Shown: positions 1,267 to 30,795 of the stretch, piece by piece | Numbering within the stretch: the stretch's first letter is position 1 | Layout of the letters: every line of letters starts with the position of its first letter | Position numbers and translations under genes: made by a program | Origin: Akkermansia muciniphila | GTDB lineage: Bacteria; Verrucomicrobiota; Verrucomicrobiia; Limisphaerales; BJHT01 | Length of the DNA: 40,436 bases | Direction of reading: 5' to 3' | NCBI GenBank assembly: GCA_945861535.1 | Contig: CAMAUZ010000074.1 | Coordinates: forward strand, 1 to 40,436 | The notes under the pieces: model-generated | Seen by the model: the letters and a program-made list of their open reading frames with translations, nothing else | What the model was told of the DNA's origin: nothing | Databases searched by the model: none

Positions 1267-1446
1267 CGGCAGAAAAATGGGGGCAGAAAAATGGGGAGGG
1301 AAGAGGAGTGCGGCGTTCTGGGCGTTTCAGGGCGGGGCGTCTGTGCGGGTAAGGACACCGCGGGACATACGGACGGTGAAGCGGCGTAAACGCCGCGCGT
1401 CTCGCGTGCCAGGAAAGCCAGCGGCCCGGCTCCCATTTTTCTGCCG
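1267..1446. repeat. Inverted-repeat element with tandem cagaaaaatgg units
   Basis: At the left end ggcagaaaaatggg occurs twice head to tail (1268-1281 and 1282-1295). At the right end cccatttttctgccg (1432-1446) is an exact 15-bp reverse complement of 1267-1281. Between the arms is a perfect hairpin, gcggcgt(1381-1387) aa acgccgc(1390-1396). The layout of terminal inverted repeats around about 130 bp of non-coding DNA resembles a miniature transposable element. It fills the gap between the convergent miaE-like and hydrolase genes. Confidence 0.6.
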
Positions 1447-21876: not shown

Positions 21877-23133
21877 TCAGTATTTCGGAAAGATGGCCGG
21901 GGTCGGGAAGCGGTCTTCGATGCTGTCTCCGATGTATTCTTCGCGGGGCACCTGGGCCTGGGGCCAGGCAGTGGGGCGGACGCGGACGACGCGGGTGGGG
22001 CGGATGCCCTCGATGATGAGGTCGGTCTCGAAGCGGATCTGGATGCCGCTGCTGCCTAGCGGAGCTTCGCCGGGGAGTTTGATGACGTCGAGGATGGTGC
22101 CCTTGGAGGCCATGTGCGCGGGGCCGTAGGCGCCGTGCGTGTGTTTCAAGGTGTTCGCGACCGCATTCATCAGGGCGGAACTGCCTTTTTGGAAACTGGC
22201 GTAGAGGGAGGCGTCCATGCCGCCGAACAAGGTTGCGGTCACGGTGGCGCGGCCGAACTTGCCATACTCGACGGTGTCGATCCATGCGGGCATCCAGCGG
22301 CTGCGGATGAAGGCCTTGTGCGTTTCGGTCTGGTTCCTGGCGGAGCGCTGCATCGCAGCTTCGTCGAGCCAGATGTCCGAGATGTGGAAGCGGGTGAAGA
22401 TGCCATCCGGCGTGGGCTTCCAGGTGATGCCGAGCAGGACGGACTGGCCGCCGAGGGGTTTTTTCCCGTCCGCGGGCCAGGCACCTTCAGCGATGAGTTC
22501 GTCGATGCCGAGGCGTTCCCGGCCGCGCCAGATGCGCGTGGCGGCGTCGAAGGTCATTTTTTCTTCGGTCGCCTTGCTGTCGCCGCCTTGCTTCGGTTCG
22601 CGGGTGGCGATGATCATGCCGTCGCGGTTTTTGACGTCCACTTCCTTGAGCTTCCAGACCAAGCCCTCACACTGGCAGTGGCTGGGCTCGTCTTCGAGAA
22701 GCAGGACGTGGTTCTCGGCGGGTGCGATGCCGGCACCGCGGTTGTGGTTCGCGTCCTTCTTCCTGCTATCGACCGGCAGCACCGGCACGGCGGAGATTTT
22801 CGGGTCGGGCGGGAGAAAAGCCCGGACGTGCATCACGGTGCCGAGCGGGATGTCCCGCAGATCTGCCGGTGCGCCGTGATAACGCACGATGCCGTAGGGC
22901 AACATGGCGAAGGGGTGCGGGTCATTTCTGAAAAACATGCCCGATCCCTGCACGCGGATGCTGCCACGGCGGTTGGCGTGATCCACGAAGATGAGTTCAC
23001 CGCGGTAGGAGAGCGCTTTTTCCAACGGTGGGAACTTTCCGGCTTCGGGGCGGAAGGGTTCGTCGGCAGCATTGGCGGCGCAGCAAGCAAGAAGGAGGAA
23101 CGAACAGCCAAGAATAAGACGTGAGCGTTGCAT
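21877..23133 (-). CDS. Secreted protein of unknown function, triplet member 3
   Basis: This is a 418-residue protein whose family I do not recognise. The N-terminus (MQRSRLILGCSFLLLACCAA) is either a signal peptide cleaved after ANA or, because of LLAC, a lipoprotein signal. Landmarks shared with the two genes upstream are FRPEAGKFPPLEKA after the signal, FVDHANRRGSIRVQG, IVRYHGAPADLRDIPLGT, AFLPPDP, LLLEDEPSHC, RIWRGRERLG, WMPAWIDTVEYGKFGRATVT, FGGMDASLYA, GSSGIQIRFETDLIIEGIRP, and the exact end RFPTPAIFPKY. The upstream frame to 23385 is the antisense-biased overlap with the next gene, so it was rejected. The gene starts 25 bases after the middle copy's stop. No catalytic motif could be named. 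A beta-rich extracellular role is an inference. Confidence 0.8.
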   Translation of the reverse strand: MQRSRLILGCSFLLLACCAANAADEPFRPEAGKFPPLEKALSYRGELIFVDHANRRGSIRVQGSGMFFRNDPHPFAMLPYGIVRYHGAPADLRDIPLGTVMHVRAFLPPDPKISAVPVLPVDSRKKDANHNRGAGIAPAENHVLLLEDEPSHCQCEGLVWKLKEVDVKNRDGMIIATREPKQGGDSKATEEKMTFDAATRIWRGRERLGIDELIAEGAWPADGKKPLGGQSVLLGITWKPTPDGIFTRFHISDIWLDEAAMQRSARNQTETHKAFIRSRWMPAWIDTVEYGKFGRATVTATLFGGMDASLYASFQKGSSALMNAVANTLKHTHGAYGPAHMASKGTILDVIKLPGEAPLGSSGIQIRFETDLIIEGIRPTRVVRVRPTAWPQAQVPREEYIGDSIEDRFPTPAIFPKY

Positions 23134-23158
23134 AGGACGGGCAGGAGCGTGATGCGGA

Positions 23159-24487
23159 TTAGTATTTCGGAAAGATGGCCGGGGTGGGAAAGCGCTCGGC
23201 GAGGTTGCTGTTGTCGAACTCCTCGCGGGGGATTTGCATCTTGGGCCAGCTTTCCGGGCGGACACGGACAACTCTCGCGGGGCGGATGCCTTCGATGATG
23301 AGGTCGGTCTCGAACTGGATCTGGATGCCGCTGCTGCCCACGGGGATTTCTCCGCCTGCCTTGGTGACGGCAACGATCTTGCCATTAGCGGCGATGTGCC
23401 CGGGGCCGTAGTGGCCGGCGGCGTGCTTCAAGGTGCTCTCGGATCCGTTGATTTGTGCCTGGACGTCTTTTTTGAAGTCGGCGTAAAGGGAAGCATCCAT
23501 GCCGCCGAACAGCGTCGCGGTGACGGTGGCGCGCCCGAACTTGCCATACTCGACGGCGTCCACCCAGGCGGGCATCCAGCGGCTGCGGATGAAGGCTTTG
23601 TGCGTCTCGGTCTGAAATTGCGCGGCGTTTTCGATGGCGGCGGCGTCCAGCCAGATGTCTGAGATGTGAAACTGGGTGAAAGCGCCATTCAGCCCATCCC
23701 CGGGTGCGGGCCTCCAAGTGATCCCGAGCAGGACGGACTGGCCACCGAGACTTTTCTTTCCGAGGGCGGGCCACGCTCCTTCGGCGACCAGGTTCGCAAC
23801 TCCGATGCGCTCGCGTCCGCGCCAGATGCGGGTCCCGGCGTCGAACGTCAGCTTCTCCTCGTCAACTTTGCCGGCTCCGCCTGCCTTCAGTTCGCGGCTG
23901 GCGATGATGGTTCCTTTGTGGTTGTTGAATTCCACTTCTTTGAGCTTCCAGGTTTTGCCCATGCGCAGGCAGTGACTAGGCTCGTCCTCGAGGAGGAGGG
24001 CGTGGTTCTCGGCGGGGAAGATGCCAGTGCCGCGATAATGGCCGGCGTCCTTCGCCTTGCTATCAACCGGCAATACCGGAACGACCGACGTCTTCGGGTC
24101 CGGCGGGAGGAAGGCGCAGACGTGCAGCACGGTGCCGAGCGGGATGTCGCGCAGGTCCGCCGGTGCGCCCTGATAACGCACGACGCCATACGGCAGCAGG
24201 GCGAAGGGATGCGGGTCATTGCGGTAAAACTTGCCCGTCCCCTGCACGCGGATGCTGCCACGGCGGTTGGCGTGATCCACGAAGATGAGTTCGCCCCGGT
24301 AGGCGTGCGCTTTTTCCAACGGCGGGAACTTTCCGGCTTCGGGGCGGAAGACGTCGGTTGTTTGTGCTTGGTTCTTCGTTCTTGGTTCTTTGTTGGCGGC
24401 GTTGGCAGGGGCCGCGAGCATGCAAACAAGGACCGCCAGCCAAGGACCGACCAGGAACCAAGAACCTGGGACAAGGGGCTGCTTCAT
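23159..24487 (-). CDS. Secreted protein of unknown function, triplet member 2
   Basis: This is a 442-residue middle copy of the tandem triplet, closely similar to the third member throughout (FRPEAGKFPPLEKA to RFPTPAIFPKY). Its signal region is unusual. MKQPLVPGSWFLVGPWLAVL and the following NKEPRTKNQAQTTD are encoded by inverted copies of the gttcttggttctt simple repeat found elsewhere in the window. The repeat has therefore been taken into the coding sequence on both sides of the hydrophobic core. Other landmarks are FVDHANRRGSIRVQG, LLLEDEPSHCLR, RIWRGRERIG and FGGMDASLYADF. The spacing is 25 bases to both neighbours in the triplet, so one transcript is likely. The function is unknown. Confidence 0.8.
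   Translation of the reverse strand: MKQPLVPGSWFLVGPWLAVLVCMLAAPANAANKEPRTKNQAQTTDVFRPEAGKFPPLEKAHAYRGELIFVDHANRRGSIRVQGTGKFYRNDPHPFALLPYGVVRYQGAPADLRDIPLGTVLHVCAFLPPDPKTSVVPVLPVDSKAKDAGHYRGTGIFPAENHALLLEDEPSHCLRMGKTWKLKEVEFNNHKGTIIASRELKAGGAGKVDEEKLTFDAGTRIWRGRERIGVANLVAEGAWPALGKKSLGGQSVLLGITWRPAPGDGLNGAFTQFHISDIWLDAAAIENAAQFQTETHKAFIRSRWMPAWVDAVEYGKFGRATVTATLFGGMDASLYADFKKDVQAQINGSESTLKHAAGHYGPGHIAANGKIVAVTKAGGEIPVGSSGIQIQFETDLIIEGIRPARVVRVRPESWPKMQIPREEFDNSNLAERFPTPAIFPKY
24368..24466. repeat. Inverted pair of gttcttggttctt repeats within a signal-peptide coding region
   Basis: ttggttcttcgttcttggtt and following bases (24368-24392) and ggaaccaagaacc (about 24453-24465) are inverted copies of one simple repeat. 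They flank the codons for the hydrophobic core of the middle triplet gene's signal peptide. Confidence 0.5.
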
Positions 24488-24512
24488 AGTGTGAGCACGA
24501 GAGCGGTGAGCA

Positions 24513-25781
24513 TCAGTATTTCGGAAAGATGGCCGGGGTCGGGAAGCGATCATCGAGCGTGGAGCGATGATCCATGAGGTATTCCTCCCGGGGCGCGGAC
24601 ACATGGGGCCAACTGGCGGGACGGACACGCACGACTCTTCCGGGGCGAATAGCCTCGATGACGAGGTCGGTCTCAAAGCGGATTTGGATGCCGCTGCTTC
24701 CCAGCGGGGGCGCTCCCGCTTTCTTGGTTACATCGAGGATGCTGCCTTTCGAGCCGATGTGCGAGGAACTGACGATGCTGGACCAAGGCTTCAAGGTGTT
24801 CTCTGCCGAGGCCATGACGCCTTGCTCCCCTTTTTTGAAATCCGCGTAGAGGGATTCATCCATGCCGCCGAAAAGCGTCGCGGTCACCGTCGCGCGGCCG
24901 AATTTCCCATACTCGACGGCATCCACCCAGGCGGGCATCAGGCGCGTGCGGATGAGAGACTTGTGCAGGCCTGTCTGATGGCTGGTGGAGCGCTGCATCG
25001 CGGTTTCATCCAGCCAGAGATCCGTGATGTGAAACTGATTCTCCACCCGGTTTTCCCACGTGCCCGCCGGCAGCCAGGTGAGCCCGAGCAGGACGGGTTG
25101 GCCACCGAGCGATTTCTTTCCCACGGCCGGCCATGCACCCTCGGCGATCAGGTCGGCGAGCCCGAGGCACTCGCGACCACGCCAGATGCGGGTGCCTGCA
25201 TCCAGGGTCATGGTTTGCTCGGATGCCTTGCCGTCTCCGCCGGCCTTTGGTTCGAGCGTGGCGATGATCTTCGTCTGGTTTTTCTGGAGATCCACTTCCT
25301 TCAGTTTCCAAACCTTGCGCTCGCGCAGGCAGTGGCTGGGCTCGTCTTCGAGCAAGATGACGTGGTTCTCGGCGGGCTGCTCCACCGTGGGTTTCTGGAC
25401 GACCGGCACGGAGGACATCGCCGGGTCCGGCGGGAGAAAGGCGCGGACATGCAGCATGGTGCCGAGCGGGATGTTCCTCAGGTCCGCAGGCGCGCCGTGA
25501 TAGCGGACGATGCCATAGGGCAGCATGGCGAAGGGTTGCGGAAGATGTTGGAAGAACACTTCGCTACCGCCTTGCACGCGGATGCTGCCACGGCGGTTGA
25601 CGTGATCCACGAAGACGAGTTCGCCCCGGTAGGAGTGCGCTTTTTCCAAAGGCGGGAACTTGCCCGCTTCAGGGCGAAAGGGCTGCTCGGCGGCGATTGC
25701 GGGGAGGTAAAGTCCAATGCTCAGCGCAACGAGCCAGCGGCGCAATGGAGTGATGAAGCGATGGATAATTCGCAGGAACAT
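24513..25781 (-). CDS. Secreted protein of unknown function, triplet member 1
   Basis: This is the 422-residue first gene of the tandem triplet in transcription order. The signal peptide is RRWLVALSIGLYLPAIAA. It shares FRPEAGKFPPLEKA, FVDHVNRRGSIRVQGG, IVRYHGAPADLRNIPLGT, AFLPPDP, ILLEDEPSHCLR, RIWRGRECLG, LMPAWVDAVEYGKFGRATVT, GSSGIQIRFETDLVIEAIRP and RFPTPAIFPKY with the other two. It is the most divergent copy, with a shorter middle (PVVQKPTVEQPAEN in place of the SRKKDAN-type segment). The ATG at 25781 lies in a repeat-dense leader that holds two A-rich tandem repeats and a large inverted repeat. Cysteine in EDEPSHC is conserved in all three copies. I cannot name a function. Confidence 0.8.
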   Translation of the reverse strand: MFLRIIHRFITPLRRWLVALSIGLYLPAIAAEQPFRPEAGKFPPLEKAHSYRGELVFVDHVNRRGSIRVQGGSEVFFQHLPQPFAMLPYGIVRYHGAPADLRNIPLGTMLHVRAFLPPDPAMSSVPVVQKPTVEQPAENHVILLEDEPSHCLRERKVWKLKEVDLQKNQTKIIATLEPKAGGDGKASEQTMTLDAGTRIWRGRECLGLADLIAEGAWPAVGKKSLGGQPVLLGLTWLPAGTWENRVENQFHITDLWLDETAMQRSTSHQTGLHKSLIRTRLMPAWVDAVEYGKFGRATVTATLFGGMDESLYADFKKGEQGVMASAENTLKPWSSIVSSSHIGSKGSILDVTKKAGAPPLGSSGIQIRFETDLVIEAIRPGRVVRVRPASWPHVSAPREEYLMDHRSTLDDRFPTPAIFPKY

Positions 25782-25785
25782 TTTC

Positions 25786-25892
25786 GACAGAAGAATGGGG
25801 ACAGCAGAATGAACCGTGAGGGGCTGGTAAAAGATGGTGGGTAAAAGATTCGGGAAACTGTTTTCATTTTCTACCCAGAATCTTTTACCAGC
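25786..25892. repeat. Leader repeat block: A-rich tandem pairs forming a large hairpin
   Basis: gacagaagaatggggacagcagaatga (25786-25812, two imperfect units) is followed by ctggtaaaagatggtgggta and on to 25850, a tandem of ggtaaaagat units. Across a roughly 20-base gap lies the inverted arm ending gaatcttttaccag (about 25878-25891), which on the minus strand is again a tandem pair (ggtaaaagattctgggtaga). The whole can fold into a long hairpin directly upstream of the first triplet gene and after the DUF1552 stop. Apart from this element, 25782-25976 holds no gene. Confidence 0.6.
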
Positions 25893-25976: not shown

Positions 25977-27350
25977 TCACACCGTGAGCATCTTGTTGCT
26001 GTCGCCAAACTTCTCGGTCTCCACGCCCATGCGCTGGGCCATGAGGAGCAGGAGATTGCTCATGTGGGCGTCGATGTTCACGGGGCGGCTGCAAAGCTGG
26101 TAGTGCGCGGTGGTGAGCGCTCCGTCTGCGCCGAGCGCGTAGCCTTGGAAGCCTGCGGCCGACTTGTTCAAGTCGAGGTGGCTGCCATGCTTCAAGCCGA
26201 GGTCCGAGCCGCCAGCGAGCACGAGCGGCAGGTTGGCGTTGCCGTGGCTGTGCCCGTAGCACATGCCGCTGCCGAAGAGGGCCATCGTCGAGCCCAGGAG
26301 CGGCTTGCCATTGAGGTCCTTGGTTTCCGAGAGCCGGGTGAGGAAGTAGCTGAATTGCTCGATGGCAAAGGTGTCGTAGTTGGTGAGCTTCTCCATGTAA
26401 CCGGCATCACCGCCGTGATGGCTGAGCTGATGGCGCGACTCGGTGATGCCAATCTCGGGAATGGAAAAGGCGTCTCCTTCGCCGCCGAGGCTGAAGGTGG
26501 CCACGCGGGTCACATCCGTCTGGAAGGCGAGCACCATGAGGTCATAGACCGTGCGGAAATATTCGCCCGCCATCGTTTGAGCGACATCGCGGTTGGTGCG
26601 CTTGCGGTCGGCGTCGGCGACGGCGGGCAACGGCGTGTCGAGCCACGCATCGGCGCGTCGAGTGCGAATCTCCGCCTCACGCACGGAGGTGAGGTATTGT
26701 TCCATGCGGCCTTTGTCCGCCACGCCCATTTTCTGCTCCAACCGGCGCACTTCGGCGAGGTTGGCGTCCAGCACGCTGCCCTTGCGGCGCAAGGCCCGCC
26801 GCTGGACTAGCTTGCCGCCTTTCGGTTCCTCGAACAGGGAGGCGAAGATCTCGCTGCACCGCCGCAGTGCGGGCAAGCGCACGCCATCCGCGGTCCAAGC
26901 GAGGGAATCTCCCGTGAGGGCAACTTCCATCGAGGGGTAACGCGTATGTGGCGCGGTGAGCTCGGCCATCCTCTGGTCCACCGAGATGGTGTTGCGATCC
27001 GACGGGCCGAGCCTGCCCCCGGTCAGCCAGACGGAAATGCAGTTGTGATGGTGGCCGAGCGCGCCGGGATGATGCAGCCCGCTGATGGGCGTGATGACCT
27101 CGCGGTGCTTTTCCAGCGGCTTGAGCGACCGGGAGAACTGGTAATCCTTGCCCGGCTTGGTGATCTGGTAGTTGAGCGAATGGACGCCATTGGCGAGGTA
27201 GATAAAGGCGCTGCGCTTGGGCGTGGCGGTGGCTTTCTCGGCTGCGCGGAGTGGCACCATGCATTCGAGCATCGGCAGCGCAACAAGGCTGCCCATGGCA
27301 CGGAGGGCGTGGCGGCGGTTGATGAGCCAGGATTGGGATTGGAGGTTCAT
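25977..27350 (-). CDS. DUF1552 family protein with twin-arginine signal
   Basis: This 457-residue protein belongs to DUF1552, a family abundant in Planctomycetota and Verrucomicrobiota and related to DUF1501 and alkaline-phosphatase-like folds. The N-terminus ([20 protein letters not shown]) carries an RR pair and hydrophobic core, so Tat export is likely. Family landmarks are [40 protein letters not shown], the HQLSHHGGD motif, [20 protein letters not shown], and [15 protein letters not shown] near the end. The frame is open to 27437 through a repeat palindrome, which would add [16 protein letters not shown]. The ATG at 27350 precedes the Tat signal and was preferred. DUF1552 genes commonly sit beside DUF1592-type cytochrome genes. 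Here that partner is separated from it by the GxxExxY unit. The function is unknown. Confidence 0.88.
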
Positions 27351-27384
27351 AGAGGTGCTTGGTTCGTTGTTTTGGTGTTCATTA

Positions 27385-27477
27385 TTTCCAGCAGATTCAG
27401 GGAGGCCAGCAGATTGGTTTTTGAGTTTGGCATTCATTCAATAAATAATCTGCTGGCCTTCCTGAATCGGCTGGAAA
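27385..27477. repeat. 93-bp palindrome A at the 3' end of the GxxExxY gene
   Basis: Arms 27385-27415 and 27447-27477 are 31 bp long with two mismatches, around a 31-nt loop (27416-27446). The arm core is gattcagggaggccagcaga. The minus-strand reading of the right arm encodes the last residues of the GxxExxY protein (PIQEGQQIIY). Its stop codon (27438-27440) and a new ATG (27437) both lie in the loop. The left arm would encode QSAGLPES. It has the same architecture as palindrome B. Confidence 0.9.
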
Positions 27478-28295
27478 CCTTTCTTTCTCGGGTGTTGGAC
27501 AAAGCTGAAATCAGCGGTGGTCTTGCCGAAATGGAGGATGATGCCCCACTCGAGGTTGAGCCAGCGGAGGTGGGTTTGGAGTATGGCGCGGTCGGTCGCG
27601 GTGATGCCGTCGGTGAGGGCTGTGACAAACAAGGCGCAGGTGTTGTTGATGACAAGACTGGACATCGTGATGTGCGCATGACTGAGCACCGTGGCAGTTG
27701 GATTGAGATGAACATTGTGACCGGCGGCTTGGATTGCGGCCCTGACCAAGCCCTTCCAAGTAGTCTGCCGATAGCCAAGACCTATTTCGTTCAAACATTC
27801 GCTGACAGCTTGAATGATGGTTGCAGCCAGTGCGGGTTCCGAGACGAATCCCGGTGGTGTGGTCTCAGGGAGATTCGCCGAGTGAGAGCGATACAACAAC
27901 CGCTTCCACATCAGGCTTTGCTTGCCGAAGTCCACCAGCAGACTGGTCCGAAGCCGCCAGAATTTGCAGTAGCTGAACAACTGGACCAAGTGTTCCGCAG
28001 CGAATGCTCCCTGGAGGCATTTCAACTCTGGGATGAAATGGTCCTCGATGACAAAATCGGGTTCAAAGGTATCCGCCACAATCCCGCGGTAAACCAACTC
28101 CCGCCTCGGCTTGGAAAGATGTGAAATACCAGCCGCCGTGAGAGTCGCGACAAGCTCTTGGTGATAAATCTCCTCGTCGAGTCCCGGCCCAACCGATGAA
28201 TGGACCTTCATAGCATGCCCGATGAAGGCATGGGTAATGGGATCTCCCTCAGATTCAGGGAGGCCAGCAGATTGGGTTTTGGATTCGAACTTCAC
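27438..28295 (-). CDS. GxxExxY protein with two PD-(D/E)XK-like domains
   Basis: This 285-residue protein has two copies of the GxxExxY domain, a predicted PD-(D/E)XK nuclease-like fold. The first domain is complete: G38-L-D-E41-E-I-Y44 in SVGPGLDEEIYHQEL, then D80 in FEPDFVIEDH, the E90-L-K92 motif, and LLVDFGKQSL. The second (about 155-270) is degenerate: GLGYRQTTWKGLV replaces the signature and no ExK is seen, but ILHFGKTTADFSFVQHPRK is retained. The start is a GTG in the loop of palindrome B. The later ATG at 28211 would remove THAFIGHA, which belongs to the domain, so I kept the GTG. Both termini (QSAGLPES at the start, PIQEGQQIIY at the end) are encoded by palindrome arms. The gene is inserted between a DUF1592 gene and its usual DUF1552 partner. 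The cellular role of the family is not established. Confidence 0.85.
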   Translation of the reverse strand: MKFESKTQSAGLPESEGDPITHAFIGHAMKVHSSVGPGLDEEIYHQELVATLTAAGISHLSKPRRELVYRGIVADTFEPDFVIEDHFIPELKCLQGAFAAEHLVQLFSYCKFWRLRTSLLVDFGKQSLMWKRLLYRSHSANLPETTPPGFVSEPALAATIIQAVSECLNEIGLGYRQTTWKGLVRAAIQAAGHNVHLNPTATVLSHAHITMSSLVINNTCALFVTALTDGITATDRAILQTHLRWLNLEWGIILHFGKTTADFSFVQHPRKKGFQPIQEGQQIIY

Positions 28296-28335
28296 TCTGA
28301 AAATAATCTGTTGGCCTCCCTGAATCTGAGGGAGA
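28243..28335. repeat. 93-bp palindrome B at the 5' end of the GxxExxY gene
   Basis: Arms 28243-28273 and 28305-28335 are 31 bp long with one mismatch, around a 31-nt loop (28274-28304) that contains the GTG start (28293-28295) of the GxxExxY gene. The arm core gattcagggaggccagcaga is identical to that of palindrome A. The palindrome begins 9 bases past the stop of the DUF1592-type gene. In the minus frame the upstream arm reads [10 protein letters not shown], which parallels PIQEGQQIIY in palindrome A. Confidence 0.92.
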
Positions 28336-28344
28336 CCTCATTCA

Positions 28345-30795
<2,451 letters not shown>

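Follow-up and report, generated by a model that had tools for sequence, protein, structure and literature searches.

A GxxExxY nuclease gene set between palindromes as a candidate mobile unit at a DUF1592-DUF1552 gene junction

A GxxExxY gene of a verrucomicrobial genome was found between two large palindromes, at a gene junction that is empty in many other genomes. Bracketing by repeats is a property of most GxxExxY genes tested, not of one odd locus, and the preliminary description of this DNA did not contain this result. In this study, we believed that the gene and its repeats form a mobile unit bounded by palindromes, and that the encoded nuclease acts on the palindrome of its unit, and we gave this reading a probability of roughly 0.58. 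The DNA analysed (the window) is a stretch of 40,436 nucleotides of Akkermansia muciniphila (GCA_945861535.1), and is one entire contig (C74) of a 7.94-Mb genome in 169 contigs.

The unit and its neighbours are read on the minus strand. The order is a DUF1592-type gene (28345..30795, minus strand), palindrome B (28243..28335), the GxxExxY gene (27438..28295, minus strand), palindrome A (27385..27477), and a DUF1552 gene (25977..27437, minus strand, the open frame as listed, with a conserved start near 27350). The DUF1592-type gene forms the upstream side of the insertion site and the DUF1552 gene the downstream side. The GxxExxY gene encodes 285 amino acids and matches the family profiles TIGR04256 and PF13366 with 98.7 and 94.3 bits (cut-offs 35 and 22), respectively.

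The preliminary description had reported two palindromes of equal geometry around one GxxExxY gene, and the same coordinates, arms, loops and mismatches were obtained when they were measured again. The arms of palindrome B (28243-28273 and 28305-28335) are 31 nt each, with a loop of 31 nt and 1 mismatch. The arms of palindrome A (27385-27415 and 27447-27477) are also 31 nt each, with a loop of 31 nt and 2 mismatches, and A and B are 79% identical over 97 nt. Rereading of the sequence placed the start codon in the loop of B and the stop codon in the loop of A, as had been described. The start codon is GTG in the window and ATG at the equivalent place in seven same-site orthologues (by eye), and palindrome B has counterparts at the same site in other genomes. 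The palindrome scores were 23 for A and 27 for B, and no score above 14 occurred in five first-order Markov resamplings of the window. Folded as single-stranded DNA, A and B gave z values of -10.1 to -10.8, and none of 200 shuffles was as stable on either strand. Both palindromes are well beyond chance and fold strongly. In a set of 33 window-type palindromes (30 distinct), 32 compensatory cells were counted at 6 of the 27 arm pairs, against a shuffle mean of 20.7 and with 0 of 1000 shuffles reaching this count, which is not a strict probability since the sequences are related.

The window arms also encode the two ends of the gene product, QSAGLPES at the N-terminus and PIQEGQQIIY at the C-terminus, in agreement with the preliminary description. 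The palindromes might matter through the protein tails that they encode. In favour of this, nine of the 11 closest relatives (the window, L177-L181, L184, L249 and L250) have QSAGLPES or a variant of it in frame. Against it, the N-terminal peptide was not in frame in L182, L183 and all eight of the more distant window-type proteins read, and in L182 the frame into the GxxExxY domain opens only after the N-terminal arm. The window and L180 share one reading frame through the C-terminal arm, L181 and L182 use another (ADSGRPTD), and the tail is absent in seven of the 11 (L177-L179, L183, L184, L249 and L250). MPI-type genes begin after the palindrome (by eye), and the structure model gave both arm-encoded ends, residues 1-16 and 272-285, as disordered. 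The coding overlap was taken as mostly incidental, a functional role for the arm-encoded peptides is weakly supported at best, and we considered it extremely improbable that the palindromes matter in this way. At L182, near 4000, the conserved ATG in the upstream palindrome loop is out of frame with the domain, through a sequence error or a shifted start.

The DUF1592 and DUF1552 genes had been said to adjoin normally. The junction was read at 36 DUF1552 genes, 30 of them among the matches listed from 384 genomes of the class and 6 at named-genome loci. In this sample, 18 of the 36 junctions were empty, with 16-77 nt between the genes. Nine were filled by a window-type unit of 898-1212 nt, seven carried a four-helix-bundle gene (in L246, the DUF1592 gene was not reached), one contained an isolated palindrome of a different type, and in one there was an unrelated frame of 425 aa. 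Empty and filled junctions were found in related genomes, where the preliminary description had proposed to look for them. In the genus g178, the junction is filled in G424 and G540 and empty, with 35-36 nt, in G420 and G629. In L250, the remnants on both sides of the unit sum to about the length of an empty junction, which indicates clean insertion a few nucleotides after the stop codon. No event of excision, circle formation or transposition was seen, and the difference between empty and filled junctions could in part be precise loss. Target duplication was sought by eye at the outer edges of seven same-site units; 4-5-nt coincidences occurred in some and nothing was consistent, the empty sites being too diverged. 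One of the 18 empty junctions (L253, among the matches listed) contains a short run of AACCAAGAAC-type repeat. The 425-aa frame (L242, gap 135-1497) had no Pfam match, and no palindrome with a score of at least 12 was found there.

A comparable site exists outside the phylum. In Sphingomonas parapaucimobilis, a unit lies between fabD and fabG, and its inverted repeat starts 8 nt past the fabD stop codon; in S. paeninsulae, at the site without the unit, about 30 nt lead from the fabD stop to a fabG-like start. The titles of 16 of the 17 named contigs with a window-type protein give Verrucomicrobia or one of its genera or families, and the title of the other gives Pirellulaceae. A scan of viral contigs found no viral carriage of the window-type protein. 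The Pirellulaceae-titled contig (L181, Planctomycetes) has a window-type unit that is 76% identical, with extra repeats and another gene context, and may reflect interphylum transfer or a binning error.

Bracketing was measured by comparing 300 nt on each side of a gene. A gene was counted as bracketed when the local match of the upstream flank exceeded 15 with the reverse-complemented downstream flank or 19 with the downstream flank itself, and both thresholds were chosen to lie close to the 99th percentile of a control set of 346 genes, drawn from 40 chunks, 21 of which are from this genome. The results showed that 62 of 71 GxxExxY genes, which are not independent loci, were bracketed, against 7 of the 346 controls. 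The window and L177, L178, L179, L180, L182 and L183 are one site in seven genomes. Among the controls, 2 of 150 size-matched genes and 1 of 81 genes at least 60 nt from their called neighbours passed, and 3.1% passed when the flanks of different GxxExxY genes were paired. The bracketed fraction was 25/29 for short genes, 15/16 for long MPI-type genes and 22/26 for window-type genes, seven of these 26 being the same site in different genomes (Fisher P < 1e-19 in each class). The short class consisted of 30 loci from a family search of 116 genomes, minus one with a short flank. The MPI-type class consisted of 16 full-length matches, with the fragments L094, L128 and L129 unused, and 17 of the window-type loci were picked from the listing by match length. 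One of 72 loci (L074) was dropped for a flank below 100 nt, and the plus strand was used for L068, whose strand was undecidable. Nine of the 71 genes were below the threshold. Plasmid-borne GxxExxY genes outside the phylum were bracketed in six of eight cases (Bacteroides, Gemmatirosa, Bernardetia, Sphingomonas, Prevotella and Fusobacteria), and those of Treponema and Persicobacter failed the test. Three of the four RAYT-like loci tested, from nine in this genome, were bracketed in the same test; since these are a known bracketed case, the test sees what it should.

This genome has six GxxExxY genes (C74, which is the window, C13, C2, C77, C112 and C38). All are bracketed, each by a different repeat. 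Two short genes (C112 and C38) had been scored as lacking a palindrome under strict detection (score at least 14, loop at most 60 nt), and the comparison of flank with flank overturned this. Most short GxxExxY genes look bare by palindrome score, yet they are bracketed when the flanks are compared. Palindromes with a score of at least 16 were found in none of their upstream flanks and four of their downstream flanks, and in 24 of 29 the upstream flank matches the reverse-complemented downstream flank, so that these genes mostly have the form of one palindrome. The C13 gene, too, has a DUF1552 gene on one side, and on the other a PSCyt1/DUF1587 gene of the kind that contains DUF1592. The C2 gene (L039, G000:C2, ~2067) is apparently frameshifted with repeats kept on both sides, which may be a decaying unit or an assembly error.

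The anatomy of the repeats varies even at the site of the window. L183 has one arm on each side, so that a single palindrome holds the gene in its loop. In L179 and L250, the upstream palindrome is complete and the downstream side has a single arm. Two full palindromes are present in each of the window, L177, L178 and L180. In 40 of 57 arms, tandem units exceeded the 95th percentile of shuffles of the same arm, and the period was 8-9 or 14-18 in 38 of these 40. The repeats were compared with the proteins at 57 of 65 loci with an arm (74 looked at), the 8 named-genome loci being left out. Repeat similarity grew with protein identity (Mantel r 0.367, reached in 0 of 2000 permutations), and pairs from the same genome were hardly more similar in their repeats than other pairs (0.231 vs 0.223). 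The data indicate that the palindrome goes more with its unit than with the background of the genome. In L166 and L168, window-type palindromes are repeated several times beside the gene, like a REP array.

The preliminary description had proposed to search the host genome for the palindrome with and without GxxExxY genes. A DNA search of the genome with the window palindrome gave 42 matches in 17 places, namely two in the window and 15 others, and the palindrome is thus not confined to the window. The 15 dispersed copies are gene-less, because all six PF13366 genes of this genome lie elsewhere. Thirteen of them were read, and all 13 are full palindromes of 64-68 nt, with 27-nt arms and 10-14 nt between the arms, vs 33 nt between the 27-nt arms of gene-flanking window-type palindromes. 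Most of the 13 are embedded in a longer common repeat (by eye), which weakens their reading as bare mobile palindromes. With their different spacing and the longer repeat, the gene-less copies are tied to the window nuclease by sequence family only. The palindrome family was present in 3 of 58 genomes searched: this genome, one of the same genus with 4 matches, and a third with 1 weak match.

Gene-less repeats of other GxxExxY loci also occur. A gene-less GGTAAAAGATG-type palindrome lies in the window at 25823..25892, and the same type surrounds the C2 and C13 genes of this genome. At 1267..1446 of the window, there is a gene-less GGCAGAAAAATGG-type repeat as found around MPI-type genes, in which two units are separated by ~130 nt from one inverted unit on the opposite side. 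Gene-less C38-type palindromes (CACTAACC units) were found in 420 kb of stretches of this genome, together with palindromes of the GGCAAAGGAATGG type, which flanks the GxxExxY genes L127 and L124 in relatives. In the same 420 kb (L214-L233 and L194), ~55 strong palindromes were seen, which belong to many different families; some start with GTAG in the manner of REPs, and others are of types such as GGTAGGGCGCGTCTGTCC and GGAGCGCGGCTGTGTCC. A lone GACAGAAGAATGG-type arm is present at 25786 of the window, a type seen around the GxxExxY gene L125 of the same-genus genome.

Taken with presence and absence at one junction, the dispersed gene-less palindromes uphold part of the earlier suggestion of a mobile unit; the movement itself we infer from patterns of presence and absence only. 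The resemblance to REP palindromes and their RAYT genes, also suggested earlier, held for the layout, with gene-flanking palindromes that recur without a gene. It did not hold for the enzyme or the tag, as there is no Y1 domain and no GTAG/CGTC tag. REPtrons with TnpAREP are likewise one-gene units between palindromes whose family is also dispersed gene-less. REP sequences and RAYTs are described as co-varying, and the repeats and proteins of the GxxExxY units are alike in this. Unlike REPtrons, the units here encode a PF13366 PD-(D/E)XK protein, not a Y1/HUH enzyme, their arms are ~27-31 nt and often made of tandem 8-18-nt units, and often a single palindrome encloses the gene in its loop. 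Of 33 window-type palindromes, one had GTAG or CGTC at a distance of up to 12 nt, and chance alone would give ~13%. Membership in the REP/RAYT system was ruled out by the missing tag and the missing Y1 HUH domain. PMC3733652 deals with palindromes of a GTAG and a CGTC type. It reports RAYTs that have GTAG repeats or other inverted repeats on their flanks, and CGTC repeats that have no transposase of their own. TnpAREP and the part played by GTAG are defined in PMC8266576.

The palindromes could still be REP-like sequences moved by the RAYT (Y1) transposases of the genome, with the GxxExxY genes as caught passengers. The genome has nine Y1_Tnp matches and many other palindromes, some starting with GTAG, which would suit such a process. 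The tag frequency is below chance, however, and when 4 of the 9 RAYT-like loci were scanned for seven repeat motifs, one weak match was obtained, three of those four being bracketed by other repeats. Passengers would also not be expected to show co-variation of repeat and protein or bracketing of 62 of 71 genes. We therefore considered this explanation improbable.

The protein is predicted to be a PD-(D/E)XK nuclease from the conserved catalytic residues in its first domain and from a fold model, which is in line with the PD-(D/E)XK-like protein of the preliminary description. Pfam gave only PF13366 (PDDEXK_3) in 15 of 15 members; no DDE-type transposase domain was among these matches. The catalytic residues D80, E90 and K92 (Asp and Glu-x-Lys), with E41 and Q105, were invariant in 9/9 and then in 15/15 aligned members. 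The structure model, made with a 15-sequence alignment, had a mean pLDDT of 84.5 and a pTM of 0.81 and showed two domains with the same order of elements. The N-terminal domain with the invariant residues was placed by alignment and model at residues 19-132 (27900..28241, minus strand). A second domain of like fold was modelled at residues 154-267 (27495..27836, minus strand), and the acidic residues matching those of the first domain look lost there (alignment, by eye). The nearest solved folds were PD-(D/E)XK nucleases, such as the Cas4-like SSO0001 (Z 9.9) and Hjc (Z 5.2-6.3), a Z below 8 being weak evidence alone. For the C-terminal domain, several structural rows were PD-(D/E)XK enzymes, such as Hjc 1gef (Z 6.3). 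Sequence comparison with solved structures found none at E 0.1, and Foldseek gave no match at E 0.001 or better, so that Pfam, the conserved residues and VIA-align rows, most of them with middling Z values, are what supports the assigned fold.

The dN/dS ratio was 0.11-0.19 for the whole gene and 0.10-0.24 for the second domain, and the first domain had the lower value in 5 of 6 pairs. Such purifying selection indicates that the protein is kept functional, the apparently inactive half included. This selection, and the use of the same junction in nine unit-carrying genomes (among the matches listed), would also be expected of a host-kept nuclease for addiction, defence or housekeeping, with the palindromes as its operator or binding sites. 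The protein had no match in the defence library PADLOC, the gene is both present and absent in one genus, and the repeats differ from gene to gene in one genome; we considered a host-kept nuclease very improbable.

We believed instead that the unit is made up of two parts, a GxxExxY PD-(D/E)XK nuclease and the palindromic repeat that goes with it, and that both would insert together between genes. The window unit would have inserted a few nucleotides after the stop codon. The simplest form may be one palindrome with the gene in its loop, and the window may hold an expanded form with a full palindrome at each end. The nuclease probably drives the pattern of presence and absence by recognising or mobilising the palindromes. 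It would recognise its own palindrome when this is extruded or single-stranded, as a hairpin or cruciform, and cut there, and repair or replication would then take the unit, or a lone palindrome in trans, to another location. Dimeric PD-(D/E)XK resolvases have four-way junctions as their substrate, and extrusion turns a palindrome into such a junction. Archaeal Hjc, which shares the fold of the window protein with other PD-(D/E)XK nucleases, is a dimer that acts on four-way junctions, the shape of an extruded palindrome. Unlike Hjc, the window protein fuses two domains, one with a seemingly lost active site, and its structural scores are middling. Short GxxExxY proteins may act as dimers, and the window protein may be a built-in pseudo-dimer, in which one domain would cut and the degenerate second domain would hold the other half-site. 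Transposons with terminal inverted repeats and MITEs are similar in having inverted repeats around one gene and short gene-less versions. The units here differ from them in the lack of a DDE transposase and of a consistent target duplication, and in gene-less arms that are nearly adjacent.

Genes of another kind share this layout. In this genome, all eight genes of PF05635, the family of the 23S rRNA intervening-sequence protein, that lie outside rRNA (L040-L047) are bracketed by inverted tandem-unit repeats. This kindred bracketing of four-helix-bundle genes was absent from the preliminary description. PF05635 was also found in all seven four-helix-bundle genes at the DUF1592-DUF1552 junction (L236, L237, L238, L246, L251, L252 and L254, among the matches listed), of which 3/7 passed the bracket threshold and the others had weaker repeats by eye. 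Genes of PF05635 outside rRNA thus use the same junction and the same kind of bracket as the window unit. Because four-helix-bundle genes without a nuclease are bracketed alike, the nuclease may not define such units. The 23S rRNA intervening sequences with S23p (PF05635) resemble the window unit in having a gene in the loop of a long hairpin and a sporadic distribution. They differ in that the window unit is between protein genes, not in rRNA, and encodes a nuclease, not a four-helix bundle.

The orientation of the units also bears on an RNA-level reading. Among neighbours within 600 nt, 53 of 66 upstream genes (controls 94 of 154, P 0.005) and 54 of 66 downstream genes (controls 90 of 155, P 0.0007) shared the strand of the unit, with crude gene calls and with L068 left out. 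In the six annotated plasmid records of eight, both neighbours were co-oriented with the unit in 6/6. This sense orientation and the kinship in layout keep in play the view that the unit is an operon version of a ribosomal intervening sequence, that is, an RNA hairpin cut by RNase III or by the encoded protein, with the gene as cargo of the loop. PD-(D/E)XK enzymes act mostly on DNA, which was counted against this view, and most structural rows were DNA nucleases, though tRNA-splicing endonucleases appeared among them. The sense orientation may also reflect only selection against damage to operons. An Rfam search over 27300-28450 gave no match at the gathering score and only sub-threshold hairpin look-alikes. 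A precedent is given in PMC4990558, where the intervening sequence of Coxiella is a stem-loop with a gene inside, cut by RNase III and of unsettled origin. We held the RNA hairpin reading, in which the element spreads by some other route such as recombination or copying from RNA, to be rather unlikely, though it deserves some weight.

The palindrome-bounded unit with its own nuclease can be extended to the whole family. GxxExxY proteins may be the mobilising enzymes of a widespread, unrecognised kind of mobile DNA, made of tandem-unit palindromes with the nuclease gene in the loop and attacked as hairpin or cruciform. Lone copies would then account for many scattered short repeats of environmental bacteria, and the ribosomal intervening sequences would form a sister lineage whose protein is a four-helix bundle. 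This extension is tentative, and we rated it somewhat below an even chance. The literature search, which covered few subscription journals and no preprints and is no proof of novelty, found no paper tying GxxExxY, PF13366 or TIGR04256 to repeats and none on the role of the family. A single mention of GxxExxY was found in passages of PMC8934634, beside a reverse transcriptase. Should every GxxExxY nuclease serve a palindrome of its own, one explanation would cover both the family and palindromic repeats without a known mover, such as the CGTC repeats of PMC3733652. A specificity code between protein and repeat would then exist that is testable in vitro. The insertion site shared with four-helix-bundle units would also offer a handle on the origin and mobility of ribosomal intervening sequences.

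Beside the unit, at 21877-25781 of the window, three successive homologous minus-strand genes of ~420-505 aa have long stretches in common (FRPEAGKFPPLEKA...) and form a local gene family.
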